A stretch of DNA of 64,000 bases, from positions 3,906,001 through 3,970,000 of the forward strand of contig JAPNXP010000013.1 in assembly GCA_028753945.1 (NCBI GenBank), read 5' to 3'. Positions within the stretch are counted from its first letter, which is position 1. Every line of letters starts with the position of its first letter. Source of the stretch: Hexactinellida sp. DTS-2022 (lineage: Eukaryota > Porifera > Hexactinellida). Below the pieces are notes generated by a model that saw only the letters and a list, made by a program, of their open reading frames with translations, was not told the DNA's origin and did not search any database. The position numbers and the translations under genes are program-made. Shown piece after piece: positions 27,001 through 60,923 of the stretch.

Positions 27001-30000
27001 CCTGCACTTGCCCCCCTGAATTACATACACTAGCTACGTGCCTGGATTATACTACAGAATAAGACTCAGCTGTATAAAGTATAACAGCATAAGTATATTA
27101 ACTCATACATTTCGTGCTTTAGGTAAATTTAAACGAATGTTGTCTAAGAAAATTTAATAAGTGGTGATGAGAAATGGGTTTAGGACTACATATTCTGATA
27201 AAATTCAAAGAATTTTAATACTTTATACATTAATTTCTCAATAAATCTGCTGATATTCAACAGACCGGCTAACTGATTAATAAATTTCTAACCGTTAACC
27301 GATGTCAGCAACGGTTAACCGGTTAGCCGGTTAACCGAATCCAGCCTTGGCTGAAGGATGTGGACATCCCGGACCAAAGCACCAAATTTTTTCCACATAT
27401 AGACCATTGCTTGGGCACTCGATTTTTGGTAGGATCCACTTCCGCCGGATACATTATGACCTCCATAAGGCATTTTCAAAATGACCATTTTAATATTATT
27501 CGGACCAAAGTCCGCATTCACTAACTCATGTCAAATGACTTCGTATAAGTATATTATATGCATAGTTGTAATCAATACAGTGTGCGCTGTCGAAAGATGG
27601 GTCACTTGGTAGGGTTGCTATAATTTCTGAGAATGGAATGTTCAACATTCCACCGTTGTCAAGGAAACTTTTTAATCTGAATATGGTCATGTGACCCCTC
27701 TAATTAACGGAAATTCCATGCTGATTACGAATATCTCATTTCCAGATTGGAATAGATATCACTTGAAAAGTTATATTACATTGAGTGCTTAATGATTAGC
27801 TAGCTTAAGAATGAAAAGTGGATACGCCATAAATTTATCTATCATGTCCCTTCGTTTCAATTTTCTATGTAGCTCAAATAAAATAAAGCGGACTTTATGC
27901 TAATCAAGTATTTGTCCCATCATAGGCGCCAAGTTTGGGGTTTTGGGGGGGGGGGCCCATTATTGTAATTGTGGGGGGGGACGACTCCCGGGCCTGTCGG
28001 CTGATTTATATTTTATATGAAAGTGGTCATTTTGATCGACCAAGGGATGATAGAGGGTGAGAATCACGTTTGTTTACTCATTATATCCAGATTTAGTTTC
28101 TGAAGAAACAAATCTGGAAATATTTAGTAAACCTCCGGTGGCCCCCCCAGACCCCCCAAGTGGCCCCACATCTTTGATTATATTTTCCAAAACTTGATTA
28201 ACCAACTATCAAACACCAAAAGAGTTGATATAGTATTAGTATGGGACATATACATCCTCAGGAGCATCAAAGAATCTACTATAAAAAAGAGAGGTAAAGG
28301 TTACGGAAAAAGGTTGCAAGTAGAAATAAGCTTCCAAGAAATTGGACAGATTTCTTACGTGATCCAACTATTAAACAAGAACTGTTTGCATTTCTTTCCA
28401 ACAAAATTGTCCCGAAGGCAAGGAAATAATCATCACGACTGGTGTCACAGCTATTCTTCGAGGAAGTGATCGTTCTATGGCGCTATGTGATCATGGGGAA
28501 GCTGACACTAGACTTCTGATCCATTTACAGGATGCCATTTTTAATAACTATACTAAATGTCTAGTGCGCGCAGTAGACATGGAAAGTTACACCACTTGAT
28601 TACCATATGCAAAGATGTGAACATTTGGGTTAGCTTTGGTACAGGAAATAACTTTACATACTATCATATCATAGCAATCTACGAAGAACTAGGAAGGGAG
28701 AAATCTCTGGCCCTTCCTGTTTTCCATTGTTTCACGGATGTGATACTACATCTGCATTCTTTTGGAGAGGCAAGTGGTCAGCATGGGAGGTTTGAAACTG
28801 TTATCATGATGTGACATTTGCCTTTACCTACATGGCACTCAACCCTTATACAAAAGTAGAATTCGATGCTCAGCATTTTTAGCTGGTGGAACGCTTTACA
28901 GTTATTCTTTATGATAAAGCAAGTAATTTGCAGTATGTGGATGAAGGAAGAAAAGAAATGATTTGTCAGGAGAAAACAATGGAGAGAATACCGCTTACCC
29001 GGGATGCACTACTACAACAATCAAAACGAGTTGCATATCAGTCTGGGATATGGTGCACCAGTGAGCAAATTGGACAACGTGTACCTACTCCAGAAGGTCG
29101 GGGTTGGACTATTGATGATAAAATCCAATCATGGGTTCCTGTGTGGAACAGTTTACCTGTGGCTTCAAAAGCATGCAGTGGATTCGTAAAATGTAGATTT
29201 AAGAGTAGAAGTGACTTTGGCGGTAGATGCGCGTGCAGAAAAGCGCGTTGGATATGCACAGAACTTTTTTTGTAGTTGTAAATGTGAGAAGCAATATTTT
29301 TAGTGACATGGTACGAACCATAATTTTTAGTATACAATCACAGTATTCACACAATTCTCACTTTATTACATTTAGTAATTAATCATTAAGCACTAAATGT
29401 AATATAACTTTTCAAGTGATATTTATTCCAATCTGGAAATGAGATATTCGTAATCAGCATGGAATTTCCGTTAATTAGAGGGGTCACATGACCATATTCA
29501 GATTAAAAAGTTTCCTTGACAACGGTGGAATGTTGAACATTCCATTCTCAGAAATTATAGCAACCCTACCAAGTGACCCATCTTTCGACAGCGCACACTG
29601 TATTGATTACAACTATGCATATAATATACTTATACGAAGTCATTTGACATGAGTTAGTGAATGCGGACTTTGGTCCGAATAATATTAAAATGGTCATTTT
29701 GAAAATGCCTTATGGAGGTCATAATGTATCCGGCGGAAGTGGATCCTACCAAAAATCGAGTGCCCAAGCAATGGTCTATATGTGGAAAAAATTTGGTGCT
29801 TTGGTCCGGGATGTCCACATCCTTCCAAAATATGGACTTAAGCTGCCCTACTATTGTATCATCTCTGAGATTAATGAAATTTAGCAAATTAGTATAAATA
29901 TTTAATTAATTTATTACAATTTAACACCATTATTATGTACAGCAAAATAAATTAAGTTCAATTATTTGTAATAATTATGAATCTAAATTAAATTAAATAT

Positions 30001-33000
30001 AATATTTGAATTCAGCGCACTCGAATTCCCCAATAATCTAATTGGAAGCGTCCCTCTATGGTAAATACAGACTGAATTAATTATAATTATAATTACGTCA
30101 GTATATTATTAGTACAAGAGTATTCTTGCAGAAGTAAATATATTCACTTAATCTGTCGTTGTTATGGAATGTAAAATCTTAGTTTTCAATTGGAAAATAG
30201 AAGCCTATTCGATTTCATAAGTGGAATCAATATAATTGTCGCAAGTTGAAAAAATAGTGTAAGATTTAACAAGTTTAATCAATATAAGTATTACAAGTTG
30301 AAACAATGGAATTAGATTTAACAGTTTTACTGAATCTGAAGTGTGAGGAAACACAGGGGATTGGCACCCCAATAATGGCACAAACCTAGGCTAAATTAAA
30401 TATTTGTGATTTGCCAAAAGGTGTAGAATTTATTTCTCTATCCGTACATGTAAATTTTATCAAGCTCAATATTAATTATTTCATGTTATGAGAAATAATT
30501 AGTTTAAATAGGTGTTTGAATCATTTGATAAAAAATCGTAACCCCAGGTGCAAATTAGACGGTCCCTCCTCAAATACATGCCAAGTTTCAGCCCTCAATG
30601 GATACAAGTGTGGCCAGGGCACCTGCTACGGAGAAAATAAAATAAAAAAATCCAAAATTGCAACCTGTGCCGACGCATGTCCTTTGGTGGCACTATATTT
30701 GGGAGGTGGTTCATTGATAGTGCCTCCAAAGGAACATGCTGTCGGCACAGGCTGCAATTTTGGATTTTTTTTCGCATTGTCATCATCACTATTAAGGTGT
30801 TAAATTATTTCAAAAAGGTGTTACAGAAGGCATCGACCCTTAGAGTGGTGGAAGGTTCAATTTAGTTCACTTCATTTTAGAGATATTCAAGTTTGAGTAG
30901 AATATAATAGCTGATGACTCAGCATTTTTTATGTGAGTGTTGGGTCATCACCCAACATCAACTAACGCATTTTAAATATCGAATTAAGAAAATTGTAAAA
31001 ACACATTTTTTTAACGATGTCATCATCACCTCAAGGTGTCAAGACCCACTTGTATAGGTGGCACATGCCATAAGGACCAATTGATAAATTGAAAGTTTGT
31101 TTCTATCTTCTATGATCTCTGAGATTTATGATATTTAATTAATTAGTATAAATAATTATTAATATTATATATAATTTAACACACATTTCATTGTCAACTT
31201 ATATTTATTAAGTTTAATTATTTTGTCATAAATAATTAATTAATTAATTTGGCTATCAAATTTCAATCCCGCACACTCGATATAACCCCTAATAAACAAA
31301 TTGGGAGCATCTATATAAGTCATATACTGACTTAATTAATTATAATTAATTACGTCAGTATATTAACAGTGCAAGAGTATTCTTGCAGAAGGAGATATAA
31401 TCAAATAATCTGTTGTTGTTATGGAATGTAGAATCTTAGTTTTCAATTGGAAAATAGAAGCCTACTCGATCTCACAGGTTGAATCAATATAATAATAACG
31501 AGTTGAAACAATAGAATTAGATTTAACACTTTCAATTGAACTGAAGTGTTAGTAAACAAAGGAAACTTGCAAAACAATTGTGGCACAAACTAAGTACAAT
31601 TTGAAAATTCGTGCACTGTGAAAAGGTGTAGAATTTAATTTTCTATCGAATGCATATAAATTTAATTTTCGGGTACTATTTATTGTGCTTTTTCTAACAT
31701 TAAACAGGTTGAAAAATGTGTCCAAAAAAATGTAATCAAAAATCGTGACCCCAGGTGCACATCTGTAACCCATGAGACACATATCCTGAAAATTTGGGCT
31801 CTTAGTTAACAAAACTCTGTTCTGTGGAGAGGATACGGAAGGATAAAAATCCACAATTGCAACCTGTGCCGACGCAAGTTCCTTTGGTGGCACTATATTT
31901 TGATGATGGTTTATTGATAGTGACATTTTTACCACTGTGGGTGGCACTCTTCACAGCCTTGTAGAAAATCTTTGCAGGCTTTTTCAGTGATACCGTGGTA
32001 CTCCTGAGATATACAATTATAAAGTAGGGTTGCCGTGGGTATGGGAATCAAGTTTCTCCTGTGGGGATTCCATATATGGATCCCCATAGGACACCCTTAT
32101 GGATATAAATACAAGTGATACAAGGCCGTTACAACCAGGTACGACATTTTCAATACTATTTTTTCTGAATTGTATAGCAGCCTATTTGTACGTGTGGAAA
32201 GTTGCAAATGGCGTACCAATGCAATGTTGCGACTGAAATGGCCATCAAATCTTGCATATTGATTTACCAGTTTAATTTTGATCCCTCCGACCCTCCGGAC
32301 CTGTCATATTGAGGATAGGATCCGAGATTATAAAATTTGAATTCTCACAATATAAATTGGTCTCTAAAATTCAGTTTTGATATGGTTTGCTCAGAATTTA
32401 AGTATCAGCTATCCATTCTAACCCAACAGTCAACCTTCTAGCTTTAATGGGCGTAAGTTATACCCACAATGTGACAATTAAGTAATAATTTGGTGTGGAA
32501 TTCTACTACATTCCCATGAATCCCATCTTATTACCACAGGATTTATTTGCTGATTCATATGTGTATATATACGTATATACGTGTACGGTATATATTTGTT
32601 TGTATGCTACGAGTTGATTGAAGAAAGTGGACGGTTTCCAAATGTGATTTTTGGCATATAGGGGTAACTTTTGGCACCCGCCAACAAGTTGAGGTTTCCA
32701 CTCAAAATTTCTCACACCTGGACAAGTTATGACGTCATTGTCACATTTCGAGAAGCCAGAAAATTCACTTAATCGCACATAATTCGCGTCCTTTGAGAGA
32801 TAAAAATCTGAAAATTTAATAGAATATGTACATTAATGATGCGGACAGGTTGGTCACACCAGATCGCCACTATGCTAACTCATTATCACATGATGACGTA
32901 TTCATTAAAATTTCACATTGTTAAATTTGACTATTTAGGCCTATTTAGTATATAAACCACACACCAACCGCGAAGCGGTTGGACTGTGGTTGTGTTCTGC

Positions 33001-36000
33001 CGCGAAGCGACCTAGCAAGCGAAGCGCGCTAGTATTATATAAAGGCCAATCCTTCTTACATGATTAAACTGTAAGTGAATCCTCTGAGTAACATCAAACA
33101 ATTCCTCAACCGAGAGTACTCGCTTATCTTACATATCGCTCTCCTTATTCCTCAGATAAAGTGGTCTCACGCTCTGATCTTATAACTTTAGTGGAGTCTT
33201 TGCCAACGCAATAGAGATGAATGTTCTGTCTCCATAATGTCACCAATGAAAACAGTTCTGATCTGTTAGTCATTGGAAGAGAACGGATTGTTTCAAGAAA
33301 CTCCAGTTTCGCCATTAGAAGTTTAATTGACTGATTGTTAGTTAGTATAGTTTATTCCTTATATAATTATTTGCAATATTAGTTTAAACTAAGCACGTGT
33401 ACTCTGTTTTACCTATCACAATTTGTTTACAGCTGATAAGCTTACTTCCCTCACGCCAAGTTTCTTCGTTGGAGGTAATGTTATTGCTGATCAACAGTTT
33501 TTTTGTTTACCCATAATCAATAAATACTAAACCATAGTACATACAATAACATTGTGTATTCGCGAATACACATTGTGTTCTTGAATACACAAGTTTTATA
33601 ATACACTGTAATATAGATATACCAAGGCAGTGGTTTCAGAACTGGCACACTACAATAGTAAGTAATCGGCACAGTAAAAATATATAAAGTGAATACTAAT
33701 TTTAGAAATTGTTTAATCTGCATCGGCAAAAATACAAAACTAACCATATAAGCTCTGCATATCCACTAATAGAGGGAACTCGTACATATCAATCTTGTTA
33801 AGGAGCGGCAAACACATCTCAAAGTGCTCGAAAATCCGCGCGACTGAAAGGGGATTGCACTCGAAATATACTCGCTTGAACTCGTCCAGGTGGATTCTAC
33901 CAGTCACAGAACGGAGTTTTGCAATGAATGAGTTGTCATTGGCCAGAGCAGGTGCGAATATTCGCGTTCCTAACCAGCCAGGATCAAGCACGACCAGACT
34001 TGTGTTTGAAAATCGATTGATGAAAACAATCTCTCCCATTCTATCCAGGTCCTCTGAAATGTTGAACAAATCTGTTTTGGCCACGAGAGGATTCACAAAC
34101 TCTTTAGTCTTCTGCAGGTAATGATGCCAGGGTAAGACTGGAAAGTTGTGGTACTCGTTCCTCCAGTCCTTGAGCACACCGGCCATTGTGTCTACCATAC
34201 CAGAATGGTAGCCATGACTCTCCACCGACTTTATACGGAGCTGACTCAGATGGTCCTATACATAAAATATCGAAAGTTACATACAACATATAAAGAACCA
34301 ATTATCAAGGAATACGCATCACAAAATCATGAACCAAATAAATTACAATTGTTGATTCATTTTGTGGAAACTAGCTATGGTTTTTATAGGGCTGATACGA
34401 ATATACCGAATTAGTCGGGTCAAAATATGAAGCAAATACCCGCAACCCCAAAAAAATTGCAAGAAATTGTTTTATTACATTTTTCCGTAGTATCATGTAT
34501 GGAGAATAACATACTAAAAGTCTAGCGAAATCGGACAACCAAAAGTATAAGAAAATGGGGTCCAAAAGTTTATGTCCGGTCGAAAATCGCCGGTTTTGTG
34601 TATCCACGTTAGCCAATTTTAATCCATTAAAAACAACCCATTGTTGTCATATTCGTACTCAGCATCAAATTTCCGGCAATTTAATATATATTTTGACCAA
34701 TTTTTTCTTGAATCCTCCCTAACAACGGCCTGGTATGTGAAAATTTATGATCCAAATAGTATATCTAACTTACCTACATTACATATATACGTTAATCAAT
34801 AAGACGATTTAGTATAGAATAAATCCTACTCTATTGATTCAACTTGCCATAATTATATTGATTCAACTTATAAATTCCAGCTGGCTTCTATTTAATTGTA
34901 GCATTACTATACAATGGATTAAATTAAATTAATTTATATAAGGAATTTGTTGACTTTACTCAACTCACCGTGGATAACATTGCTAAAATAAATCACTAAT
35001 AATTTAATTTATTATCAATATGAATGAATGGCATTAAACTAAAGATGGTTTATGATAGAACCGTTAAGATTTTACATTCCACAACAACGACAGATTAAGT
35101 GATTATATTTATTTCGCCGAGAATATTCTTGCACAATTAATGTACTGACGTAATTAAATATAATTAATTCCTTTTGTATTTAACTTATAGACGGTTCCAA
35201 TTGGATTATTGGGGTTATCGAGTGCGTTGAATTCAAATATGATAGTGAAATTCGATTTAAATTAATAATAAGTGCAAATAATTGAACTTTATTTATTTTG
35301 CTGTACATAATAATGGTGTTAATTAAATTATTAATTTATTAATTAAATATTTATACAAATTAGCTAAATTTCATTAATCTCAGAGATGATACAAGATACA
35401 AACAAACTTTCAATTTATCAATTGGTCCTTATGCCACGTACCACCTATACAAGTGGGTCTTGAGTCTCTTGACACATTGAGGTGATGATGACATCGTCAA
35501 AGAAATTTATTTTTACAATTTTGTGAATTAAACAATTCGCATGGGTTGGTTGGAGTTGGGTGAATACCCAACACGCACTTTAAAATGCTGAGTCATCTGC
35601 AATTATATTATACTGAAACTTGAATATCTCTCAAATAAAGTGATCTAAATGGAAACTTCCACGACTCTAAGGGTCGTTGCCTACTGAAACACCTTTCTGT
35701 AATAATTTAACACCTTCATAGTGATGATGACTAGGCGAAAAAAAATCCAAAATTGCAGCTTGTGCCGACAGCATGTTCCTTTGGAGGCACTATCAATAAA
35801 CCAACATCAAAATATAGTGCCACCAAAGGAACATGCTGTCGGCACAAGCTGCAATTTTGGATTTTATTATTATCCTTCCGTATCCTCTCCACAGAACAGA
35901 GTTTAATTAACTAAGAACCCAAAATTTCAGGATATGTGTCTCGTGGGTTACAGATGTGCACCTGGGGTCACGATTTTTTATTACATTTATTTGGACACAT

Positions 36001-39000
36001 TTTTGCACCTGTTTAATATTGAAACAGGAACAATAAATAGAACCCGAATATTAAATTTATATGCATTCGATAGAGAATTAAATTCTACACCTTTTCACAG
36101 TGCACGAATTTTCAAATTGAGCTTCGTTTGTGCCACAATTGAGTTGCAAGCTTCCTTTGTTTACTAACACTTCAGTTCAATTGAAAGTATTAAATCTAAT
36201 TCTATTGTTTCAACTTGTTATTATAATATTGATTCAACTTGTGAGATCGAGTAGGCTTCTATTTTCCAATTGAAAACTAAGATTATATATTTCATAACAA
36301 CGACAGTTTATGTGATTATATTTCCTTCTGCAAGAATATTTTTGCACAATGGATACATGACATATTTAATTCTAATTAATTCGCTCTGTGTTTAACTTAT
36401 AGAGACGGTTCCAAAGGGAAACCTGAATAAGACCGAATGGAATAAGACCGAATGGAATAAGACCGAAAAAAAATCAGTACTGGAATAAGACCGAATGGAA
36501 TAAGACCGAAAAAAAATCAATACTGGAATAAGACCGAATGGAATAAGACCGAAAAAAAATCAGTACTGGAATAAGACCGAATGGAATAAGACCGAAAAAA
36601 AATCAATACTGGAATAAGACCGAATGGAATAAGACCGAAAAAAAATCAGTACTGGAATAAGACCGAATGGAATAAGACCGAAAAAATATAAGGGCTGCTT
36701 TTCACCCTGATCAATATTAGACACTTAGAAAGGCGAGCGTTTTAACCATTCTCCATAAAAGACAATTAGAGTGGCCAGTGTTTTCCCCATGATACATATA
36801 TCACACTTAAAAAGGCGAGTATTTTCTCCATTAATCACATAGTCGGGTGTTTTCTCAATGAACCATAATTCACGCTTAGAAAGTCGAGGTTTCACTTTTA
36901 TTCTTACCAATAGATACGTATTTCAGAGTAGTCCTTATATTATTCGGTCTTATTCCAGTACTGATTTTTTTTCGGTCTTATTCCATTCGGTCTTATTCCA
37001 GTACTGATTTTTTTTCGGTCTTATTCCATTCGGTCTTATTCCAGTATTGATTTTTTTTCGGTCTTATTCCATTCGGTCTTATTCCAGTCCTGATTTTTTT
37101 TCGGTCTTATTCCATTCGGTCTTATTCCAGTCTTAGAAAATCAGATTTTCTGCCTAGATTTTCGGTCTAATTCAGTCAACTCGTTCCAAATTCCAATTAG
37201 ATTATTGGGGTTAAGGAGTGCGCAGAATTTAAATAATATAATGAAATTCAATTTAGATTAATAATTATTGCAAATAATTGAACTTAATTTATTTTGATGT
37301 ACATAATATTGGTGTTACTTATTAGTAGATTAATTAAATATTTATACTAATTATCTAAATTTCATTAATCTCAGAAATTATAGCAGATGGAAACAAACTT
37401 TCAATTTATCAATGGGTCCTTATGCCACGTACCACCTATACAAGTGGGTCTTGACACCTTGAGGTGATTATGACATCGTCAAAGGAATGCATTTTTATAA
37501 TTTTGAGAATTATAAAATTCAAATGGGTCGGTTGGTTTTGGGTGATCACCCAACACGCACATTAAAAATGCTGACTCATCACTTATTATTTTGTACTGAA
37601 ACTTGAATATCTTTGAAACGAAGTGAGCAAAATGGGAACTTCCACCACTCTAAGGGTCGTTGCCTTCTGAAACACCTTTCTGAAATAATTTAACACCTTC
37701 ATAGTGATGATGACATGGCGAAAAAAATCCAAAATTGCAGCCTGTGGCGATAGCATGTTCCATTGGAGGCACTATCAATAAACCACCATCAAAATATAGT
37801 GCCACCAAAGGAACATGCATCGGCACAGGCTGCAATTTTCGATTTTATTTTCTCCGTAGACGGTGCCCTGGCCACACCTTTATACATAGAGAGCTGAAAC
37901 TTGGCATGTAGGTGCGATGGGACCGTCTAATTTGCACCTGGGGTTACGAATTTTGATCAAATTATTTTAACACCTATTTAAACTAGTTATGGCTCATAAA
38001 ATGAAATAATTATTTTTGAGCTTGATAAATATTACATGTACGGATAGAGAATTAAATTCTACACCTTTTCACAGTGCACGAAATTTTAAATTGGGTTTCG
38101 TTAGTGCCACAATAGAGTTTCAAGTTTCCTTTGTGTACTAACACTTCAGTTCCATTGAAAGTGTACACTTTTACTGAAATTGAAGTGTGAGTAAACAAAG
38201 AAATTTCAACCCCCATTTATGGCAGAAATTAAACCATTTATTGAAAATCTTCTTCACCCATCAGACGCAGAATTTTATGGTGAATCCAAATGTGAAATAA
38301 AATTTGGGGGTTTAGTAAAATATTTTTAGTTATGGACCAGACAAATTTTGAAAGGTGTCAAAAATGTGTCCAAAATTGGTTAATCAAAAATCGTAACCCC
38401 AGGTGCAAATTAGACGGTCCATACGCACCTACATGCCAAGTTTTAGCCAATCAAATCTAAAGCTCTGGCCTGGGCACCGTCTACGGAGAAAAAATCCAAA
38501 ATTGCAGCCTGAGCCGACGAATGTTCCTTTGGTGGCACTATATTTTGATGGTAGTTTATTGATAGTGCCTCCAAAGGAACATGCTGTCGGCACGGGCTGC
38601 AATTTTGGATTTTTTTTTCGCCATGTCATCATCACTATGAAGATGTTGAATTATTTCAGAAAGGTTTTTCAGAAGGCATCGACCCTTAGAGTGGTGGAAG
38701 TTTCCATCTAGTTCACTTCATTTTAGAGATATTTGAGTTTGAGTAGAATATAATAGCTGATGACTCAGCATTTTTTATGTGAGTGTCAGGTCACCCAAAA
38801 TAAACTAACTCATTTTAAATATCGAATTAACAAAATTGTAAAAAAACATTTTTTTAACGATGTCATCATCACCTCAAGGTGTCAGGACCCACTTGTATAG
38901 GTGGCACGTGCCATAAGGACCAATTGATAAATTGAAAGTTTGTTTCTATCTTCTATGATCTCTGAGATTTATGATATTTAATTAATTAGTATATATAATT

Positions 39001-42000
39001 TTTAATATTATTTATAATTTAACACCAATTTCAATATCAACTTATATTCATTAAGTTTAATTATTTTGTCATAAATAATTAATTAATTAATAAGGCTATC
39101 AAATTTCAATTCCGCACACTCGAAAACCCCTAATAAACAAATTGGGAGCATCTATATAAGTCATACACTACTGAAATAATTATAATTAATTACGTCAGTA
39201 TATTAACAGTGCAATAATATTCTCGCAGAAGTAAATATAATCACATAATCTGTCATTGTTATGGAATGTAAAATCTCGGTTTTAATTGGAAAATAGAAGC
39301 CTACTCGATATCACAAGTTGAATCAATATAATAATAACGAGTTGAAACAATAGAATTAGATTTAACACTTTCAATTGAACTGAAGTGTTAGTAAACAAAG
39401 AACTTTCAACTCCCATTTATGGCAGAAATAAAACTCTTTATTGAAAGTTTTCTTCTCCCATCAGACGCAGAATTTTATGGTGAATCCAAATATGAAATAA
39501 AATTTGGGGGTTTAGTAACATTTTTTGAGTTATGGAACAGACAAACTTTGTAAGGTGTTAAAAATGTGTCCAAAATGTGTTGATAAAAAATCGTAACCCC
39601 AGGTGCAAATTAGACGGTCCATACCCACCTACATGCCAAGTTTCAGGCAATCAAATATAAAACTCTGGCCAGGGCACCGTCTACGGAGAAAAAATATAAA
39701 TATAAATAAAATCCAAAATTGCAGCCTGTGCCGACGCATGTTCCTTTGGTGGCACTATATTTTTGTGTTGTTTATTGATAGTGCCTCCAAAGCAACATGC
39801 TGTCGGCGCAGGCTGCAATTTTGGATTTTTTTCGCCAAGTCATCAACGCCCAAGGTGTGAAGAACCATTCCTTAATTGGTCGGAGTCACAAGGAACGGTA
39901 GATAAATTTGAAGTTTGTTTCTATCATAAACCATCTTGAGTTTAATGCCATTCATTCATTATGTATTGATAATAAGTTATATTATTAGTTATTTATTTTA
40001 GCAATGTTATCCACGGTGATTTGAGTTTAGTCAACAAATTCCTTATATTATTATATTTTATTTAATGCATTGTATAGTAATACTACAATTAAATAGATGC
40101 CAGCTGGAATTTATAAATTGAATCAATTTAATTATCGCAAGTTGAAACAATAGTGAAAGATTTAACAAGTTAAATCAATATAATTATTACAAGTTGAAAC
40201 AATGGAATTAGATTTCACAGTTTTACTGAAATTGAAGTGTGAGTAAACAAAGAAATTTCAACCCCCATTTATGGCAGAAATAAAACTCCTTTTTGAAAGT
40301 TTTCTTCTCCCATCAGACGCAGAGTTTTATGGTGAATCCAAATATGAAATAAAAATTGGGGGTTTAGTAAAACATTTTTTGAGTTATGGACCAGACAAAT
40401 TTTGAAAGGTGTTAAAGATGTGTCCAAAATTTGTTAATCAAAAATCGTAACCCCAGGTGCAAATTAGACGGTCCCATCGCACCTACATGCCAAGTTTCAG
40501 CCCATCAACTATAAAGCTCTGGCCAGCGCACCGTCTACGGAGAAAAAATAAAAATAATAAAGGCAGTGATTCCAATACTGGGCCACTATACTATAGTATA
40601 GTCGGCACAGTAATAAAGGCAGTGATTCCAATACTGGGCCACTATACTATAGTATAGTCGGCACAGTAAAAATAAATAAATACAAATAAAGGCAGTGATT
40701 CCAATACTGGGCCACTATACTATAGTATAGTCGGCACAGTAAAATCCAAAATTGCAGTTGTGCCGACGCATGTTCCTTTGGTGGCACTATATTTTGATGG
40801 TGGTTTATTGATAGTGCCTCCAAGGAAAATGCTGTCGGCACAGCTGCAATTTTGGATTTTTTCGCCAAGTCATCATCACTATGAAGGTCTGAAATTATTT
40901 CAGAAAGGTCTTTCAGAAGGCAACGACCCTTAGAGTGGTGGAAGTTTCCATTTAGCTCACTTCATTTGAGAGATATTCAAGTTTCAAGTAGAATCTAATA
41001 TTTATTGAGTCAGCATTTTTAAAGTGCGTGTTGGGTATTCATCCAACTCCAACCAACCCATGCGAAATGTAGAATTCACAATATTGTGAAAACACCTTTT
41101 TTACGATGTTATCAACACCTCAAGGTGTCAAGACACATTTGTATAGGTGGTACCTGGCATAAGGACCAATTGATAAATTGAAAGTTTGTTTCTATCTTGT
41201 ATCATCTCTGAGATTAATGAAATTTAGCTAATTAGTATAAATATTTAATTGATTTATTTATCATTTAACACCATTATTATATACAGCAAAATAAATTAAG
41301 CTCAATTATTTGCAATTATTATTAATTTAAATTGAATTTCACTATAATATTTGAATTCCACGCACTCGATAACCCCAATAATCTAATTGGAACCGTCTAT
41401 AAGTTAAATACAAGATGAATTAATTATAATTAATTACGTCAGTACATTAATTGTGCAAGAATATTATCACCGAAATAAATATAATCACTTAATCTGTCGT
41501 TGTTGTGGAATGTAAAATCTTAACAGTTCTATCATAAACCATCTTTAGTTTAATGCCATTCATTCATTACTTATTGATAATAAATTAAATTATTAGTTAT
41601 GTATTTTCGCAATGTTATCCACGGTGAGTTGAGTAAAGTCAACAAATTCCTTATATAAATTAGTTAATTTAATCCATTGTATAGTAATGCTACAATTAAA
41701 TAGAAGCCAGCTGGAATTTATAAGTTGAATCAATATAATTATGGCAAGTTGAATCAATAGAGTAGGATTTAACAAGTTAAATCAATATAATTATTACAAG
41801 TTGAAACAATGGAATTAGATCTAAATTTAATTTATTATCAATAAGTAATGAATGAATGGCATTAAACTAAAGATGGTTTATGATAGAACTGTTAAGATTT
41901 TACATTCCACAACAACGACAGATTAAGTGATTATATTTATTTCGGCGAGAATATTCTTGCACAATTAATGTACTGACGTAATTAATTATAATTAATTCCT

Positions 42001-45000
42001 TTTGTATTTAACTTATAGATTGTTCCAATTAGATTATTGGGGTTATCGAGTGCGTGGAATTCAAATATTATAGTGAAATTCAATTTAAATTAATAATAAT
42101 TGCAAATAATTGAACTAAATATATTTTTCTGTATAGCTGTATATAATAATGGTGTTAAATAATTAATAAATTAATTAAATAGTATACTAATGAGCTAAAT
42201 TTCATTAATCTCAGAGATGATTCAAGATAGAAACAAACTTTCAATTTATCAATTGGTCCTTATGCCAGGTACCACCTATACAAGTGGGTCTTGACACCTT
42301 GAGGTGATTATGACATCGTCAAAAAAATGTATTTTTACAATTTTGTGATTTAAATAATGCGCATGGGTTGGTTGGAGTTGGGTGAATACCCAACACGCAC
42401 TTAAAAAAAGCTGACTCAGCACATATTAAATTCTACTGAAACTTGAATATCTCTCAAATTAAGTGAGCAAGATGGAAACTTCTACCACTCTAAGGGTCGT
42501 GGCCTTCTGAAACACCTTTCTGAAATAATTTAACACCTTCATTGTGATGATGACTTGGCGAAAAAAATCCAAAATTGCAGCCTGTGCCGACAGCATGTTC
42601 CATTGGAGGGACTATCAATAAACCACCACCAAAATATAGTGCCACCAAAGGAACATCCGTCGGCACAGGCTGCAATTTTGGATTTTTTTATTGTGCCGAC
42701 TATACTATAGTATAGTGGCCCAGTATTAGAATCACTGCCTGTATTACTGTGCCGACTATACTATAGTATAGTGGCCCAGTATTGGAATCACTGCCTTTAT
42801 TTTTAATATTATTACTGTACCGACTATACTATAGTATAGTGGCCCAGTATTGGAATCACTTCCTTTATTTTACTGTGCCGACTATACTATAGTATAGTGG
42901 CCCAGTTCTAATCTTACTGCCTTAAATAATATTATTATTATTATTACTGTGCCGACTATACTATAGTATAGTGGCCCAGTATTGGAATCACTGCCTTTAT
43001 TTTTACTGTGCCGACTATACTATAGTATAGTGGCCCAGTTCTAATCTCACTGCCTTTATTTTTTTATTTTTATTACTGTGCCGACTATACTATAGTATAG
43101 TGGCCCAGTATTAGAATCACTGCCTTTATTATTATTTTTATTATTTTTTTTTTTTTTCTCCGTAGACGGTGCCCTGGCCTGAGCTTTATAGTTGATGGGC
43201 TGAAACTTGGCATGTAGGTGCGATGGGACCGTCTAATTTGCACCTGGGGTTACGATTTTTGATTAACAAATTTTTGACACCTCTTTGACACCTTTCAAAT
43301 TTTGTCTGGTCCATAACTTAAAAATTGTTTTACTAAACCCCCAAATTTTATTTCACATTTGGATTCGCCATAAAATTCTGCGTCTGATGGGAGAAGAAAA
43401 CCTTCAATAAAGGGTTTAATTTCTGCAATAAATGGGGGTTGAAATTTCTTTGTTTACACACACTTCATTTTTAGTAAAACTGTGAAATCTAATTCCATTG
43501 TTTCAACTTGTAATAATTATATTGATTTAACTTGTTAAATCCTACTCTATTGTCTCAACTTGCAATAATTAAATTGATTTAACTTATAAATTCCAGCTGG
43601 CTTCTATTTAATTGTAGTATTACTATAAAATGGATTAAATATAATAATATAATATAAGGAATTTGTTGACTTAATTCAACTCAACCGTGGATAACATTGC
43701 TAAAATAAATAACTAATAATATAATTTATTATCAATACATAAAGGATTAATGGCATCAAACTCAAGATGGTTTAAGATAGAAACAAACTTCAAATTTATC
43801 TACCGTTCCTTGTGACTAGGACCAATAAACAAATGGTTCTTCACACCTTGGGCGTTGATGACTTGGCTAAAAAAAATCCAAAATTGCAGCCTGCGCCGAC
43901 AGCATGTTCCTTTGGAGGCACTATCAATAAACAACCAACAAAATATAGTGCCACCAAAGGAACATGCGTCGGCACAGGGTGCAATTTTGGATTTTTTTTT
44001 TCTCCGTAGACGGTGCCCTGGCCTGAGCTTTATTGTTGATGGGCTGAAACTTGGCATGTAGGTGCGATGGGACCGTCTAATTTGCACCTGGGGTTACGAT
44101 TTTGTATTAACAAATTTTTGACACATCTTTAACACCTTTCAAAATTTGTCTGGTCCATAACTCAAAAAATGTTTTACTAAACCCCAAAATTTTATTACAC
44201 ATTTGGATTCACCATAAAATTCTGCGTCTGATGGGAGAAGAAAATTTGTTAAAATTGGTTTAATTTCTGCCATAAATGGGGGTTGAAATTCCTTTGTTTA
44301 CTCAACACTTCAATTTCAATAAAACTGTGAAATCTAATTCCATTGTTTCAACTTGTAATAATTATATTGATTTAACTTGTTAAATCTTTCACTATTGTTT
44401 CAACTTGCGATAATTAAATTGATTCAACTTATAAATTCCAGCTGGCTTCTATTTAATTCTAGTATTACTATACAATGGATTAAATATAATATAATAATAT
44501 AAGGAAATTGTTGACTAAACTCAAATCACCGTGGATAACATTGCTAAAATATATAACTAATAATATAATTTATTATCAATACATAATGAATGAATGGCAT
44601 TAAACTCTAGATGGTTTATGATAGAAACAAACATCAAATTCAACAATCGTTCCTTGTGACTCCGACCACTTAACAAATGGTTCTTCACACCTTGGGCGTT
44701 GATGACTTGGCGAAAAAAATACAAAATTGCAGCCTGCGGCCGACAGCATGTTCCTTTGGAGGCACTATCAATAAACCACCAACAAAATATAGTGCCACCC
44801 AAGGAACATGCGTCGGCACAGGATGCAATTTTTTTTTTTACTGTGCCGACTATACTATAGTATAGTGGCCCAGTATTAGAATCACTGCCTTTATTTTTAT
44901 TATTTTTTCTCCGTAGACGGTGCCCTGGCCAGAGCTTTATAGTTGATGGGCTTAAACTTTGCATGTAGGTGCGATGGGACCGTCTAATTTGCACCTGGGG

Positions 45001-48000
45001 TAACGATTTTTGATTAAGAAATTTTTGACACATCTTTAACACCTTTCAAAATTTGTCTGGTCCATAACACAAAATATGTTTTACTAAACCCCCAAATTTT
45101 ATTTCACATTTGGATTCACCATAAAATTCCGCGTCTGATGGGAGAAGAAAACTTTCAATAAAGAGTTTTATTTCTGCCATAAATGGGGGTTGAAATTTCT
45201 TTGTTTACTCACACTTCAGTTTCAGTATAATTGTTAAATCTAATTCCATTGTTTCAACTTGTAATAATTATATTGATTTAACTTGTTAAATCTTACTCTA
45301 TTGATTCAACTTGCGATAATTAAATTGATCTAACTTATAAATTGCAGCTGGCTTCTATTTAATTTACCATACAATGGATTAAATAAAACAATATAATATA
45401 AGGAATTTGTTGACTTAATTCAACTCAACCGTGGATAACAATGCTAAGATAAATAACTAATAATATAATTTATTATCAATACATAATGAATGAATGGCAT
45501 CAAACTCAAGATGGTTTAAGATAGAAACAAACTTCAAATTTATCTACCGTTCCTTGTGACTCGGACCAATTAACAAATGCTTCTTCACACCTTGGGCGTT
45601 GATGACTTGGCAAAAAAAATCCAAAATTGCAGCCTGCGCCGACAGCATGTTCCTTTGGAGGCACTATCAATAAACAACCAACAAAATATAGTGCCACCAA
45701 AGGAACATGCGTCGGCACAGGGTGCAATTTTGGATTTTTCTTTTTTCTCCGTAGACGGTGCCCTGGCCAGAGCTTTATTGTTAATGGGCTGAAACTTGGC
45801 ATGTAGGTGCGATGGGACCGTCTAATTTGCACCTGGGGTTACGATTTTTGATTAACAAATTTTGGACACATCTTTAACACCTTTCAAAATTTGTCTGGTC
45901 CATAACTCAAAATATGTTTTACTAAACCCCCAAATTTTATTTCATATTTGGATTCGCCATAAAATTCTGCGTCTGATGGGAGAATAAATTTTCCAATAAA
46001 GGGATCAATTTCTGCCAAAAAAGGGGGTATAAATTTCTTTGTTTACTCACACTTCAATTTCAGTAAAGTGTTAAATCTAATTCTATTGTTTCAGCTTGTA
46101 ATAATTATATTGATTTAACTTGTTAAATCCTACTCTAGTGATTCAACTTGCGATAATTATATTGATTTAACTTGTTAAATCCTACTCTAGTGATTCAACT
46201 TGCGATAATTATATTGATTTAACTTATAAATTCCAGCTGGCTTCTATTTAATTCTAGCATTACTATACAATGGATTAAATTATATTAATTTATATAAGGA
46301 ATTTGATGACTTTACTCAACTCACCGTGGATAACATTGCTAAAATAAATAACTAATAATTTAATTTACTATCAATAAGTAATGAATGGCATTAAACTAAA
46401 GATGGTTTATGATAGAACCGTTAACATTTTACATTCCACAACAACGACAGATAAAGTGATTATATTTATTTCGCGAGAATATTCTTGCACAATTAATGTA
46501 CTGACGTAATTTATTATAATTAATTCCTTTTGTATTTAACTTATAGATTGTTCCAATTAGATTATTGGGGTTATCGAGTGCGCTGAATTCAAATATGATA
46601 GTGAAATTCGATTTAAATTAATAATAAGTGCAAATAATTGAACTTTATTTATTTTGCTGTACATAATAATGGTGTTAAATTATTAATTTATTAATTAAAT
46701 ATTTATACTAACTAGCTAAATTTCAATAATCTCAGAGATGATACAAGATAGAAACAAACTTTCAATTTATCAATTAGTCCTTATGCCACGTACCACCTAT
46801 ACAAGTGAGTCTTGACACCTTGAGGTGATGATGACATCGTATAAAAAATGTATTTTTACAATTTTGTGAATTAAATAATTCGCATGGGTTGGTTGGAGTT
46901 GGGTGAATACCCAATTAGCACTTTAAAAATGATGAGTCATCACAGATTATATTCTTCTGAAACCTGAATATCTCTCAAATGAAGTGAGCTAAATGGAAAC
47001 TTGCACCACTCTAAGGGTCGTTGCCTACTGAAACACCTTTTGATATATTTTAACACCTTCATAGTGATGATGACATGGCGAAAAAAAATCCAAAATTGCA
47101 GCTGTGCTGACAGCATGTCCCATTGGAGGCACTATCAATAAACCACGACCAAAATATAGTGCCACCAAAGGAACATGCGTCGGCACAGCTGCAATTTTGG
47201 ATTTTTTTTTTTCTCCGTAGACGGTGCCCTGGCAACACCTTTTACATAGAGAGCTGAAACTTGGCATGTAGGTGCGATAGGACCGTCTAATTTGCACCTG
47301 GGGTTACGATTTTTGATTAACAAATTTTTGACACATCTTTAACACCTTTCAAAATTTGTCTGGTCCATAACTCAAAATATGTTTTACTAAACCCCCAAAT
47401 TTTATTTCACATTTGGATTCACCATAAAATTCTGCGTCTGATGGGAGAAGAATATTTTCAAAAATATGTTTAATTTATATAATGGGGTTTGAAATTTCTT
47501 TGTTTACTCACACTTCAATTTCAGTAAAAGTGTTAAATCTAATTCTATTGTTTCAACTTGTAATAATTATATTGATTTAACTTGTTAAATCCTACTCTAT
47601 TGATTCAACTTGCCATAATTATATTGATTCAACTTATAAATTCCAGCTGGCTTCTATTTAATTGTAGTATTACTATACAATGGATTAAATAAAATATAAT
47701 GATATAAGGAATTTGTTGACTAAACTCAAATCACCGTGGATAACATTGCTAAAATAAATAACTAATAATTTAATTTATTATCAATAAGTAGTGAATGAAT
47801 GGCATTAAACTAAAGATGGTTTATGATAGAACTGTTAAGATTTTACATTCCACAACAACGACAGATTAAGTGATTATATTTATTTCGGCGAGAATATTCT
47901 TGCACAATTAATGTACTGACATAATTAATTATAATTAATTCCTTTTGTATTTAACTTATAGACGGTTCCAATTGGATTATTGGGGTTATCGAGTGCGTGG

Positions 48001-51000
48001 AATTCAAATATTATAGTGAAATTCAATTTAAATTAATAATAATTGCAAATAATTGGACTAAATTTATTTTGCTGTACATAATAATAATGGTGTTATATTA
48101 CTTATTTATTAATTGAATATTTATACTAATTAGCTAAATTCATTAATCTCAGAGATGATACAAGATAGAAACAAACTTTCAATTTATCAATTGGTCCTTA
48201 TGCCACGTAGCACCTATACAAGTGGGTGTTGACACCTTGAGGTGATGATGACATCGTATAAAAAATGTATTTTTACAATTTTGTTAATTAAATAATTCGC
48301 ATGGGTTAGTTGGAGTTGGGTGAATACCCAACAAGCACTTTAAAATGCTGAGTCATCACAGATTATATTCTACTGAAACTTGAATATCTCTCAAATGAAG
48401 TGAGCTAAATGGAAACTTCCACCACTCTAAGGGTCGTTGACTACTGAAACACCTTTTATTTATACTAATTGATGAAATCTGCTAATCCATACTAACAAAC
48501 CCTCGAATTTAATTGGCTAACATATTTTGTCACCTTCAAATGTGAATATTTCTCTTCAAAAACCAATAGATCGTTGTCGCAGTACAAAATTACCCCTGTA
48601 TACAAATTTTCAGCTTTCTGGGACTCGTAGTCTTTCCAATTAATTCTGGACAAACACACAAACACACAAAACATTCCTCTTTTAATATACGAGCCCTTCG
48701 GTCTCGGTCGCTTCGCGACGGATCACTCTCTCACAAAGGTCGCTTCGCGACCTTTGTTCGTTCGTATTAGACACTACGCAAAATAATTAACGGCCGCTTC
48801 GCTGCCTTACTCTCCTCAAATATAACTCATATTAAATAAGTTAAGCCTGTGACTGGTAAATTACACGTACTCAATTCAGTATGCTGCTATTTGGGACCCC
48901 AGTATGTCAAGTAATTAATTAATTCATTCATGTTATTTACTAACCCAGGATTTTAACAGCATAGTAGTAAATTGTTTGTAAATAGTTGAATTACTTTGAT
49001 AGTAATATTATGCTTATGTGATTGACGTAAATACATCACGAATAGAAATAAACTGATGGAAGCCAAACTGGATTAATCAAGTATGCAATTTCGGAAATAA
49101 TGTAGGTGAGATTAAATCATCAAACCTCAATATGTGCAATGACGCAGCAATTGTAGGTTACATTTTTGTTATTGCCTGGCTCAGATTAAATGCGAAAATT
49201 ATAAAAATTTCTAGAGACATGCAACACATTCTGTTTTATAACGTGACAAAATTGTTTGACTATTGAATCAAAAATGTAAGAGCTGAATCCAAATTAGTTC
49301 GTACGTGACGTCACAATCCCATAAATCGGTATACGTGTGTCTCATTGTATGTTGTGTTATCATCTAAAATTGTGAGCGAATCGAGTAAAAACTGAAAGAG
49401 TTACTCCCAAATATGTGCCTTTATGACGTCATAATCCCGTTATTTCGCTTAGAAAACCAATAGATCGTTGTCGCAGTACAAAATTACCCCTGCATCCCAA
49501 TTTTCTGCTTTCTGGGACTCGTAGTCTTTCCAATTAATTCTGGACAAACACACACACACACACACACACAACAATTGCGCTTTTAATATAGAGATAGATA
49601 GATAGATAGTTAGATAGATAGATGTAATCTTTCCAGAAATTTCCATAGAAACAAATTTTTTGGAAATTTTATAACACTAGTATAGAGTAATAATTACAAT
49701 ATATGAGTATGTATATTTGATTACGTCATTGCGGTTAAATCCCGTGAGAAATCATCACCAAAAGTGTTCTAGATGTTTCCAGTCTATTTGAAAATTTAAG
49801 TCTAATAGATTCCATGACTATAGGTGATTATATTTACGAGCAATTAGAAAGTAAACACTGGCCTGGAAATGAAATGAGCAAATACTTGACTTACCTTATT
49901 ATAGAAAATTAACGCGCCATGAAATTAACGCAAATTGGAGCAATTCGCGTTAATGTCATGGCGCGTTAATTTCCGGAAATAAGGTATACCCCAGAGTATA
50001 TAATGTCCTAGTCTAATTATACTCCTGGGTATATTATGTCCTAGCCTAATTATACTCCCGGATATATTCTGTCCTAGTCTAATGACCCAGGCCTTCATCT
50101 GGGACCCCCAGGGGTGCGTGATTTTAAGGAAAATTCTGGAAGGGTGCGTGAAATTGGAATTAATTTGGGTGCGCATTGCGCACCCAGAGTATTTCTAATA
50201 CTATTTTTGGTCTTTTTGGTAAATGTACAATTTTTGGCAAATTTGGGTGCGCGATTGAAAAATCAACATCTCCTAGGGTGCGCGGATCTCTTAGGGCAAG
50301 ATGAATGCCTGTAATGACCTTATTATAGGAAATTAACGCGGCATGAAATTAATACGACGGAAATTAACGCGTAACGCGAATTGGAGCAATTCGCGTTAAT
50401 TTCATGGCGCGTTAATTTCCTATAATAAGGTATCTAGCCGTATAATATAGTAGGCCTTGGGTGATGTTAGTTTCGGCTATCCAGGATAGAAAGTAGGAGT
50501 ACACAAGCACACAAGTAATCAATTACAGTGGAGTTTGCTGATTAGCAACTCCCCTATTAGCAATATTGCTTTATTAGAAACCGATTTTCATATCCAAAAG
50601 CGTGATAACCTGTTAATTCATCTCTCTATTAGCAACTTCGCCCATTAGCAACCATATTTAGTGCCAAACAAGGGTTGCTATTAAGCGAACTCCACTGAAC
50701 TCAAAAAAGGATTAAGTTACTGTATAACATTATTACCTTGAGGGCAACAAGCCTTGAAGATCTAGGATTCAGTGCGTTGATTGTAAAAGTTTGATTTGAA
50801 AATGAAAAGAATTGCTGGAATTCCTCCCTTAGAGTGAATAGGATCGATTGCGCAATTTCCTTAGCAGGTGCTGCCTCCTGGCTCGAAATTGAAGGAGCGA
50901 AGGTCTGACTGGAGTTTAGCGAGAGAGAGCTTCCGAGTGTAGAGTCGTCGCTAGAGCAGACGGAAGAGAAGGAGTTACGTCTTGCCAGCTTTCCAGACGA

Positions 51001-53180: not shown

Positions 53181-53186
53181 TGATTA

Positions 53187-56450: not shown

Positions 56451-57071
56451 GTATGCCAGAATGACTCGCATGCTAGAATGACACAAACCATGGATATTCA
56501 CTATCTATGCTAGAATGACACGCTCTACTAATCATCTAATGACTGTTAGAACTTCACAGGTTTCTCAGTTCATTCAGACAATTACATTTCACTTTTTGAT
56601 ATGGCTTCTTTATCTTTAGATTTTAAAATACAGTAGTATGCCAGAATGACTCGCATGCTAGAATGACACAAACCATGGATATTCACTATCTATGCTAGAA
56701 TGACACGCTCTACTAATCATCTAATGACTGTTAGAACTTCACAGGTTTCTCAGTTCATTCAGACAATTACATTTCACTTTTTGATATGGCTTCTTTATCT
56801 TTAGATTTTAAAATACAGTAGTATGCCAGAATGACTCGCATGCTAGAATGACACAAACCATGGATATTCACTATCTATGCTAGAATGACACGCTCTACTA
56901 ATCATCTAATGACTGTTAGAACTTCACAGGTTTCTCAGTTCATTCAGACAATTACATTTCACTTTTTGATATGGCTTCTTTATCTTTAGATTTTAAAATA
57001 CAGTAGTATGCCCGAATGACTCGCATGCTAGAATGACACAAACCATGGATATTCACTATCTATGCTAGAAT
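56451..57071. repeat. 185-bp tandem repeat, 3.4 copies
   Basis: Units start at 56451, 56636, 56821 and 57006 (partial, 66 bp). The period is exactly 185 and only one substitution was noticed (GCCAGA to GCCCGA in the last). Within each unit ATGCTAGAATGACAC occurs repeatedly. It abuts the right end of the large palindrome. Confidence 0.93.
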
Positions 57072-57959: not shown

Positions 57960-60923
57960 TGATGTTTACTTTCAATATTGTGGCAATGACTAATCGGAAT
58001 TTTCTGCATTCAAGAAATAATGAAATTTATCTAATTACGTGTAGTATAAATCTATACTATAAAAATCCAAAATTGCAGCCTGTGCCGACGCATGTTCCTT
58101 TGGTGGCACTATATTTTGGTGGTGGTCTATTGATAGTGCCTCCAATGGAACATTCTGTCGCACAGCTGCAATTTTGGATTTTTTTTTTCACCATGTCATG
58201 AACGCCTCATGGTGTTGAGCCTCATGGTGTTGAGACTCATTTAACAAGTTGTTACGGGACAAAGGAACGATTGTTGAATTTGAAGTGTATTTCTATCTAG
58301 AACCATCTTGAGTTTAATGCTATTCATTCATTATGTATTGATAATAAATTATATTATTTAGTTAATTATTTTAGCAATGTTATCCACTGTGAGTTGAGTT
58401 AAGTAAATAAATTCCCAATTTAATTTAATTTGCTTTAATCCATTGAATATTAATACACTGTTAAAAATTGGAAATCAGCATACTTGTTTACTTCGAATAC
58501 AAAAGGGATTAAGTTTATATTCCCATTATAACCCCCTATCACTCTAATACAATTCGGGCACCAAACACGTACACAGTCGAATACTCATTTAATAGATATT
58601 CAATTTCATTAATCCATTGTTTGTATATCAGTCATCTTTTTAAAATTGAAATCAGCATACTCGCTTACTTTGAATGACATATGGGATTAAGTTTATATTT
58701 CCATTATAAATGCGATATAAACCCCCCCCTTACACTCTGATATATTTCGGGCACCAAGCACACACATAGAAAAATATTTATACAAATTGATATTCCATCT
58801 CATTAATCCATTGTTTGAATATCAGAAATCGTTCTCAAATTGAATAATTGTTGAGTGAAAATGAATTTTCATATAGGAAAAAACTTCAATACAACTAGTA
58901 TTAGAAATTGCTTTATATAGTAGCAGCTATTGAATCAAATTGAATTATTCATTTACAATATAATAACTTATTGTAACTTTGATATCAGAAATAGATTTGT
59001 ATAGTAATAGCTATTGAATGTAAATTAGTTATTCATATATACTAGAATTCTTTATTGTGATTATAATATCAACAATAACTTGAATCGAAATAACACTGAA
59101 TCTAATTGAATTATTCATAAATATTAAATAGTAGTTATTCATCGAAACCACGAAATAATTGCATAATTGAATATTAATGAATTTACGATTTTAGAAAGTT
59201 AAGGGTCAATTGTGGCAACTTTGAGCCTAATTCTCAGGAAAATGAGGACGGATTAAAAAGATCGTGAAGAGGTATCAGTTGCAAAATACTTTTCTGATAC
59301 TAATGATGCTAAAAATTTTCTTGTTATTGCATTTATTTTCTTGTGGGACAAAAAAAGCTAAAAGTCCCGTTAAAAATTTTCCCAAGTCGAAATTGAAAAA
59401 TCAGGCCACGAAGTGCACATTAATCAACAACCAGACACCTATCCTGAAAATCTCAGAGCTCTAGCACTTATGGTTTAGCCTGGGGAGGCGACACGGAGAA
59501 ATAAAAAAAAAAAAAATCCAAAATTGCAGCTGTGCCGACGCATGTTCCTTTTGTGGCACTATATTTTGGTGGTGGTTTATTGATAGTGCCTCCAAAGGAA
59601 CACGCTTGTGGCACAGCTGCAATTTTGGATTTTTTTCGCCATGTCATGAACACCTCATAGTGTTTAGTCACATTTAACAAGTTGTACGGGACAAAGGAAC
59701 CATTGTTGATTTTAAATTATTTCTATCTTGAACCATCTTGGGTTTAATGCCATTCATTCATTATGTATAGATAATAAATGATATAAATAGTTAATTATTT
59801 TAGCAATGTGAGTTGAGTTGAGTTAAGTAAACAAATTTCCAATTTAATTTAATTTGCTTTAATCCATTGAATATTAATATACTGTTTAAAATTGGAAATC
59901 AGCATACTTGTTTACTTAGAATGACAAAAGGGATCTAGTTTATATTCCTATTATAACCCCCTATCACTCTAATACAATTCGACCACCAAACACGCACACA
60001 GACGAATAGTCATTTAATAGATATTCCATTTCATTAATCCATTGTTTGTATATCAGTCATCGTTTTAAAATTGAAATCAGCATACTCGCTTACTTTGAAT
60101 GACATATGGGATTAAGTTTATATTTCCATTATACGTAAATGCTTTATAAACCCCCCCCCCTTACACTCTAATACATTTCGGGCACCAAGCACACAAATAG
60201 ACAAATATTTATACAAATAGATATCCCATCTCATTAATCCATTGTTTGAATATCAGAAATCGTTCTGAAATTGAATAACTGTTGAGTGAAATTGAATTTT
60301 CATATAGGAGAAAACTTTAATACAACTATTGTATTAGAAATCGATTTATATACTAATGAATCAAATTGAATTATTCATATAAATAGAATAAATTATTGTA
60401 ACTATGATATCAGAAATAGATTTGTATAGTAATAGCTATTGAATGTAAATTAGTTATTCATATATACTAGAATTCTTTATTGTGATTATAATATCAACAA
60501 TAACTTGAATCGAAATAACACTGAATCTAATTGAATTATTCATAAATATTAAATAGTAGTTATTCATCGAAACCACGAAATAATTGCATAATTGAATATT
60601 AATGAATTTACGATTTTAGAAAGTTAAGGGTGAATTGTGGCAACTTTGAGCCTAATTCTCAGGAAAATGAGGACGGATTAAAAAGATCGTGAAGAGCTAT
60701 CAGTTGCAAAATACTTTTCTAATACTAATGATTCTAAAAATTTTCTTGTTATTGCATTTATTTTCTTGTGGGACAAAAAAAGCTAAAAGTCCCGTTAAAA
60801 GATTTTCCAAGTCGAAATTGAAAAATCAGGCCACGAAGTGCACATTAATCAACAACCAGACACCTATCCTGAAAATCTCATAGCTCTAGCACTTATGGTT
60901 TAGCCTGGGGAGGCGACACGGAG

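Follow-up and report, generated by a model that had tools for sequence, protein, structure and literature searches.

Which kind of genetic element has given rise to the tandem modules and hairpins that recur in a 64,000-nt stretch of the genome of the glass sponge Hexactinellida sp. DTS-2022? The stretch, hereafter called the window, comprises positions 3906001-3970000 of contig C5 (G000; genome of 112.4 Mb in 18 contigs), and plain coordinates refer to it. An initial annotation had described the modules as an unclassified repeat system. We assign them to the Helentron/HINE class of transposons because the termini, the coding capacity and the target of the element fit this class. Very probably, the modules are HINEs, i.e. 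non-autonomous derivatives, of an autonomous Helentron residing in the same genome, and the arrays have been built by self-nesting insertion.

Read from 5' to 3', the element consists of a cassette (T|ACTGTGCCGAC, a palindrome and GGCCCAGT), a 15-nt box, a T/(TTA)n spacer, the sequence TCCGTAG..., 52-bp central repeats, coding genes in the autonomous form or none in the HINE, a 3' region and a hairpin of about 115 nt ending with GGATTT(TT)|T. The cassette is the 5' terminus of the element, because copies outside arrays start with it: the flank ends in T, followed by ACTGTGCCGACTATACTATAGTATAGTGGCCCAGT, the box and the T/(TTA)n spacer, and TCCGTAG comes last. These copies open with ...T|ACTGTGCC. 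Since the 5' end is composed of cassette and spacer, the palindrome cassettes, (TAA)n and poly-A stretches, which had been regarded as other inserts gathering at the junctions, are pieces of the element itself. The 10-mer CTGTGCCGAC of the 5' end reappears inverted (GTCGGCACAG) in the 3' hairpin, giving 10-bp subterminal inverted repeats at both ends. One cassette was folded and forms a small hairpin (-9 kcal/mol, z -5.5). The three folded 3' hairpins reached -46.3, -51.7 and -60.8 kcal/mol with z-scores of -13.7 to -18.8, and for each of them none of 200 shuffled sequences was as stable.

The target of the element became apparent from two copies for which empty sites exist. In locus L025, a 1493-bp copy is located inside another copy of a related family (type C), at TTATT|TCG. 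The joined flanks read through without a break at four further places, namely in L020, at two positions of the window and at another position of L025 (92-95% identity), and the site shows neither duplication nor loss. In locus L010, a 1244-bp copy lies within the T-run of a different repeat, and 16 of the 19 listed places that match the joined flanks are empty end to end (85-98% identity); two of the other rows are the halves of L010 itself and one is a partial match. Two empty copies of this site were read and have T6; in L010, the copy is preceded by T3 and its final GGA is followed by T6; therefore, three Ts can be assigned to the element. No target duplication was found at either of the two empty sites, which lack cassette, module and hairpin together. 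Thus, the element inserts into T-rich DNA without target duplication, the exact T positions being ambiguous within T-runs. Two other views of the termini were dropped on the evidence of the cassette as the 5' terminus and of the empty sites without target duplication, namely that TCCGTAG is a Helitron-like 5' end with a TC start, and that the modules are LINE- or SINE-like (long or short interspersed nuclear elements) with a fixed 3' end, 5' truncation and a (TTA)n tail.

The autonomous partner, which the initial annotation had proposed to search for, exists in the same genome. A profile search of the genome with PF14214, in which 150 of 292 candidates were scored, yielded 151 matches falling into two classes. 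At least 20 of the listed rows of one class contain open frames of 1652-1709 aa. The frame read unchanged from L039 (P0001, 1699 aa), the one protein tested, has a Rep and a PIF1-type helicase part, followed C-terminally by an endonuclease domain, all above curated cut-offs (Helitron_like_N, 8e-29; PIF1, 1e-24; Exo_endo_phos, 3.4e-6 at 1244-1428; Exo_endo_phos_2, 1.9e-6). The helicase part matches that of Helraiser (7lcc, 3.6e-19), and P0001 also matches PIF1 helicases. The module 5' region was found in all four autonomous copies that were read there (L041-L044), of which L042 starts with TCCGTTG in place of TCCGTAG. In the copy carrying the L039 frame, which is one of these four, the 5' side is 88-91% identical to its eight best-matching window stretches along about 470-570 bp. 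In the copy on contig C2 (L046), the element's own 3' region leads straight into the module 3' region and the hairpin. This end was seen in one of the two autonomous copies read there, the other one, on C13, being rearranged; a probe designed for the 3' end (L039:210-640) matched its own locus only. Judged by these shared sequences, the modules are best read as deletion derivatives of the autonomous element. The second Helitron class (L029-L038), showing a full PF14214 match and listed open frames of up to 1930 aa, was rejected as a partner, as two blocks of the window, compared by BLAST, revealed no module sequence in these ten loci (about 3.5 kb each). Some copies of this class carry repeated RLEY-type coding units, which were read by eye from the DNA. 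A fragment of a Helitron Rep gene (Helitron_like_N) is also present in the window near the first array, at 6058-6871.

Is the hairpin an integral part of the element? In 20 evenly spaced 10-kb stretches of the genome (17 on contig C1 and 3 on C2; 200,000 bases in total), 14 of 19 hairpins are joined to a module 3' end at one fixed point; most of the other loci that were read had been picked by similarity. The remaining five hairpins lack a module end, and the hairpin resembles a fold-back element, both of which would suit a separate hairpin MITE (miniature inverted-repeat transposable element) that has repeatedly been inserted at one spot in unrelated modules. We give this explanation very little credence given the fixed junction, the autonomous copy on C2 that ends with the hairpin and the empty sites at which cassette, module and hairpin are missing together. 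No MITE-type target duplication around the hairpin alone was seen at the hairpin joins and the two empty sites, the five isolated hairpins not having been checked singly. The situation that the initial annotation had considered as speaking against its view, i.e. mostly isolated hairpins with their own target duplications, is therefore not the one found in the sample.

The same sample allows an estimate of abundance: the family queries cover 10,840 of the 200,000 bases, or roughly 5% (about 10,060) after subtracting 778 bases that are due to two queries from the fold-back element at 36425. One module part has at least 40 scored matches on 13 contigs, among 2843 first-look candidates. This dispersal is hard to reconcile with a conventional satellite, in which a long monomer including the palindrome would be homogenised by unequal exchange. 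The tandem arrangement, the single orientation within runs, the AT-rich composition and the modest coding capacity of the main array, with 162 aa for the longest of its listed stop-to-stop frames, would agree with a satellite. However, whole copies have inserted at sites that are empty elsewhere, coding copies share the ends of the modules, and neighbours show no clear local homogenisation beyond a slight same-locus excess for the 3' regions (see below). We attach almost no weight to this possibility, and the earlier view that neither a simple satellite nor a MITE cluster is present holds.

How, then, are the arrays organised? Repeat finding, self-BLAST and sequence reading revealed tandem modules of two size classes with hairpins of about 115 nt in several blocks, as previously described; the repeat spacings indicate a size difference of about 560 bp. 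The modules do not always meet at a bare hairpin, as had been claimed. Module starts (TCCGTAG and variants) were counted by sequence pattern in the window and the fetched loci, which misses degenerate starts (such as L042, L004 and the start near 1280 of the window), and L001, L039 and L040 were excluded as overlaps. In this count, 36 of 55 starts stand directly behind a hairpin and a T-rich spacer, 17 are preceded by their own cassette, with one or more cassettes upstream, and 2 by something else. Furthermore, the limits of the main block at 34820 and 48457 and its switches in orientation near 38163 and 41824 all fall within modules.

Self-nesting would account for these junctions as follows. 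Copying would be of the rolling-circle kind, as the protein family suggests, and the arrays would result from repeated insertion of the element into itself. Each full copy carries two T-rich sites that share one polarity, namely the T-run behind the hairpin and the spacer behind the cassette. Landing in the T-run would produce the order hairpin-cassette-module, head to tail. Landing in the spacer would split the host copy, leaving an orphan cassette upstream and a cassette-less, 'decapitated' module directly behind the hairpin of the newcomer. If the T-strand orients insertion, the copies would share one direction. The features are listed below; the arrays exceed the four blocks counted in the initial annotation.

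34820-48457, mixed strands (plus from 34820 to about 38162, minus from about 38165 to about 41824, plus onward to 48457): main array of non-autonomous Helentron copies
43072-43999, plus: one short-class element with its own 5' cassette (43072), T-rich spacer, TCCGTAGACGG module, 3' hairpin (43875-43993) and T-run
45737-47208, plus: one long-class, decapitated module; the T-run of the preceding hairpin runs straight into CTCCGTAGACGG; terminal hairpin at 47087-47203
42687-43142, plus: run of seven 5'-terminal cassettes whose boxes differ in sequence, one being the module's own and six being orphans
40576-40743, minus: three 5'-terminal cassettes (two orphans, one own), then two decapitated modules of the same type at 39690 and 38490
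44837-44902, plus: single own 5' cassette of the module starting at 44907
35744-35863, plus: 3' terminal hairpin with near-perfect arms of about 50 bp each; folded
37726-37844, plus: 3' terminal hairpin
38493-38611, minus: 3' terminal hairpin
39710-39827, minus: 3' terminal hairpin
40743-40858, minus: 3' terminal hairpin
42566-42684, plus: 3' terminal hairpin; folded
43875-43993, plus: 3' terminal hairpin
44718-44832, plus: 3' terminal hairpin
45618-45736, plus: 3' terminal hairpin; folded
47087-47203, plus: 3' terminal hairpin
58061-61210, minus: array of the related family (type C, about 1.45 kb) with four cassettes, one module with its own cassette and one decapitated module; both flanks are non-module DNA
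18-3340, mixed strands: further array with cassettes at 2862 and 2927 on the minus strand; the next module, near 1280, has no cassette
25004-26715, minus: further array, the terminal hairpin of which adjoins another repeat
29854-31922, minus: further array
about 16.0-20.4 kb: old fragments of the family

The types of cassettes and modules provide evidence for nesting. In all 17 direct pairs, the cassette has the type of its module: TTTA-spacer cassettes precede AGACGG/AGCAGG modules (8/8) and TTGG cassettes precede the other types (9/9). There are four arrays in which the orphan differs in type from the module that it precedes and in which a decapitated module is in view. In three of them (L008, L048+L051 and the window array with the cassette at 2927, where the start lies near 1280), the first decapitated module is of the orphan's type; in L020, it is the second one. 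L051 was read after the prediction had been put on record, and the fit of L047 had already been seen. In both L047 and L051+L048, the array borders non-module DNA and opens with a single orphan, a single own cassette and a single module; a decapitated start then follows at the position predicted for the autonomous copy. L052 and L053 continue without cassettes and speak neither for nor against nesting. The numbers of orphans and decapitated modules agree in the run at 40743 (two each), which is cut by the flip at 38163. On C13, two orphans precede the autonomous copy, and the starts seen downstream are two, the first decapitated and the other following a different insert.

Several observations weigh against this interpretation. 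The numbers of orphan cassettes and visible decapitated modules disagree in the type C array (three and one), in the array at 42687 (six and three) and in L020 (one and two). Composites with several 5' ends, as proposed for Fusarium (PMC5148889), may be the source of the surplus cassettes. A lone 5' cassette core within an autonomous copy (L043:1420-1465), which is located in the 52-bp repeats with no other part of the element beside it, indicates that 5' pieces can arise by another route. As to the partner, its 3' end is taken from one copy (L046): the 3' part of the C13 copy (L039/L045) is broken up by other sequence, and no hairpin of its own was seen ahead of the following module start. 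The OTU match of P0001 is below the cut-off (E 0.073), and L047-L049 are linked to autonomous copies by coordinates, with about 350-400 bp unread in between.

The disagreeing counts in three arrays are also what one would expect if slippage between T-rich spacers multiplies and removes cassettes, in which case the junctions between hairpin and TCCGTAG would be slippage deletions and the arrays otherwise clustered insertions. Indeed, T-rich stretches flank the cassettes, spacer lengths vary and all four cassettes in the type C array belong to a single type. However, adjacent cassettes often have different boxes (42687-43142, L008, L020), and orphans may differ in type from the next module and yet match a later decapitated one. 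Slippage as the main explanation appears rather unlikely to us, while still being the strongest of the competing explanations for the arrays.

A further question is whether the units of an array arrived separately or together. For this comparison, 58 hairpins, 22 5' regions and 31 3' regions were available (L001, L039 and L040 again excluded), and 22, 7 and 8 adjacent same-strand pairs, respectively, were set against pairs from different loci. The mean identities of adjacent pairs and of pairs from different loci were 0.941 and 0.937 for hairpins, 0.911 and 0.896 for 5' regions and 0.870 and 0.864 for 3' regions. A hairpin had its best match within its own locus in 2 of 58 cases (6.5 expected), and a 5' region in 4 of 22 (4.4 expected); the slight excess for 3' regions (7 of 31, 4.3 expected) is a point against separate arrival. 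Because adjacent units are about as alike as units from different loci, they seem, as far as such likeness can tell, to have come separately and not through concatemers or local duplication. A signal of this kind might also be blurred by gene conversion among arrays. Rolling-circle concatemers, in which copying would run past the 3' hairpin so that a single event yields several head-to-tail units, would suit an element of this kind, and direct 3'-5' junctions (GGATTTTT|ACTGTGCC) do occur; in addition, PMC5148889 discusses Helitrons with regard to tandem insertion and circular intermediates. Besides the likeness data, the mixture of subfamilies and autonomous copies within arrays and the variation in spacers and cassette numbers from junction to junction make concatemers improbable. 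Thus, the link to rolling-circle replication made in the initial annotation stands with respect to the type of element, whereas growth by concatemers or by local recombination at the hairpin is not supported.

The autonomous copies are themselves found in such surroundings. The autonomous 5' region has 46 matches in the genome, and the 5' side was read for eight of the nine strongest. All seven copies that could be placed stand behind a hairpin-bearing module (L041-L044 directly, L047-L049 by coordinates), and four of the seven have no cassette of their own at the junction with the upstream module; the eighth (L050) was left out as its spacing was not as expected. In keeping with these counts, a more speculative idea is that the symmetric 3' hairpin, in which the end motif occurs in either orientation (CTGTGCCGAC and GTCGGCACAG), has a double role in an array, forming the 3' terminus of one unit and at once the 5' terminus of the unit that follows. 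Modules without a cassette, decapitated autonomous copies among them, would in this case remain mobile as units with a hairpin on each side, and the array as a whole would be transposable. We regard this as unlikely, if worth stating.

Some further observations concern the arrays and the rest of the window. At 36425-37134, one module contains a fold-back insertion with arms of 43-bp tandem repeats (GGAATAAGACCGAA...); the arms are 199 nt long, 97% complementary and about 300 nt apart, and we take the insertion to be outside the Helentron family. A motif close to that of this element (TTTAGGTCTTATTCCAAC) underlies 82-bp tandem repeats at 15440-15839. The flip in direction of the main array coincides with a short palindrome (AGTGTACACT) inside a module at 38150-38180 and is perhaps a fold-back or inversion junction. 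A common flank sequence (AAATACCCGCAACCCC...TCCGTAGTATCATG) occurs near the edges of two different arrays, at 3414 and 34484. Two P-element-like genes are located at 12181-14019 and 8661-9431 (minus strand), the former combining THAP and TNP-like RNase H domains in a 613-aa frame and the latter being a second RNase H fragment. A 185-bp tandem repeat (3.4 copies, 99% matches) lies at 56451-57071, with two nearby arrays of 18/35-bp repeats at 54831 and 56368, the units of which are mutually reverse-complementary. Pieces of genes encoding Death domains and ankyrin repeats were found at 17492-18028 and 50704-53183 (minus strand), together with a weak Roc match below the cut-off.

With self-nesting as the preferred explanation, an apparently new repeat system becomes a readable record of Helentron insertions. 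If nesting holds true, orphan cassettes and decapitated modules would act as opening and closing brackets, so that one could work out in which order the copies of an array were inserted. Moreover, a Helentron whose hairpins are outsized and of which numerous copies have open frames is useful for studying end recognition and the seeming self-targeting of a little-tested class of transposons.

For the comparison with known systems, we rely on the portions of PMC4067079, PMC7492417 and PMC5148889 that were available. Helentrons and HINEs are characterised there by subterminal inverted repeats, a 3' palindrome, central repeats, a TT or T-rich target with variable T strings, an endonuclease and sometimes an OTU domain (PMC4067079, PMC7492417). 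Like the elements of Metaseiulus, Culex and Drosophila (DINE-1), the sponge element combines Rep and helicase with a C-terminal endonuclease, has palindromic subterminal inverted repeats, a 3' palindrome, central tandem repeats and a T-rich or TT target, and its derivatives share their ends with the autonomous copy (PMC4067079). It differs in that the arms of the 3' hairpin are about 50 bp long, whereas the palindromes of the mite Helentrons measure 5-10 bp, in that the 3' subterminal repeat lies inside the hairpin and is an inverted 10-mer instead of 12-15 bp, and, probably, in its frequent self-nesting into arrays (PMC4067079). The Fusarium elements FoHeli1/2, which are of the Helitron2 type, resemble it in having hairpins at both termini and ATTTT at the 3' end, in inserting into themselves and in showing several 5' termini ahead of a single 3' terminus; in contrast, they prefer TNAT/A sites, and one tandem-like case is described (PMC5148889). 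Helitron2 also differs by lacking an endonuclease (PMC4067079). Earlier tandem insertions of Helitrons are named for bat, fly, rice and maize (PMC5148889). Cg_HINE of the Pacific oyster shares a 5' subterminal inverted repeat with a complementary inverted repeat, a microsatellite, central satellite-like repeats, a 3' subterminal inverted repeat and a palindrome, but its tandem part is the central repeat, whereas here whole elements are in tandem (PMC7492417). With canonical Helitrons (Helraiser), the element shares a related helicase part. The ends and target of Helitron1 (5' TC, 3' CTRR, A|T target) are absent; the sponge element has ACTG..., ...GGATTT(TT) and a T|T target, and its hairpin is much larger. 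Thus, the element is of the already known Helentron/HINE kind and is distinguished by unusually large end hairpins.

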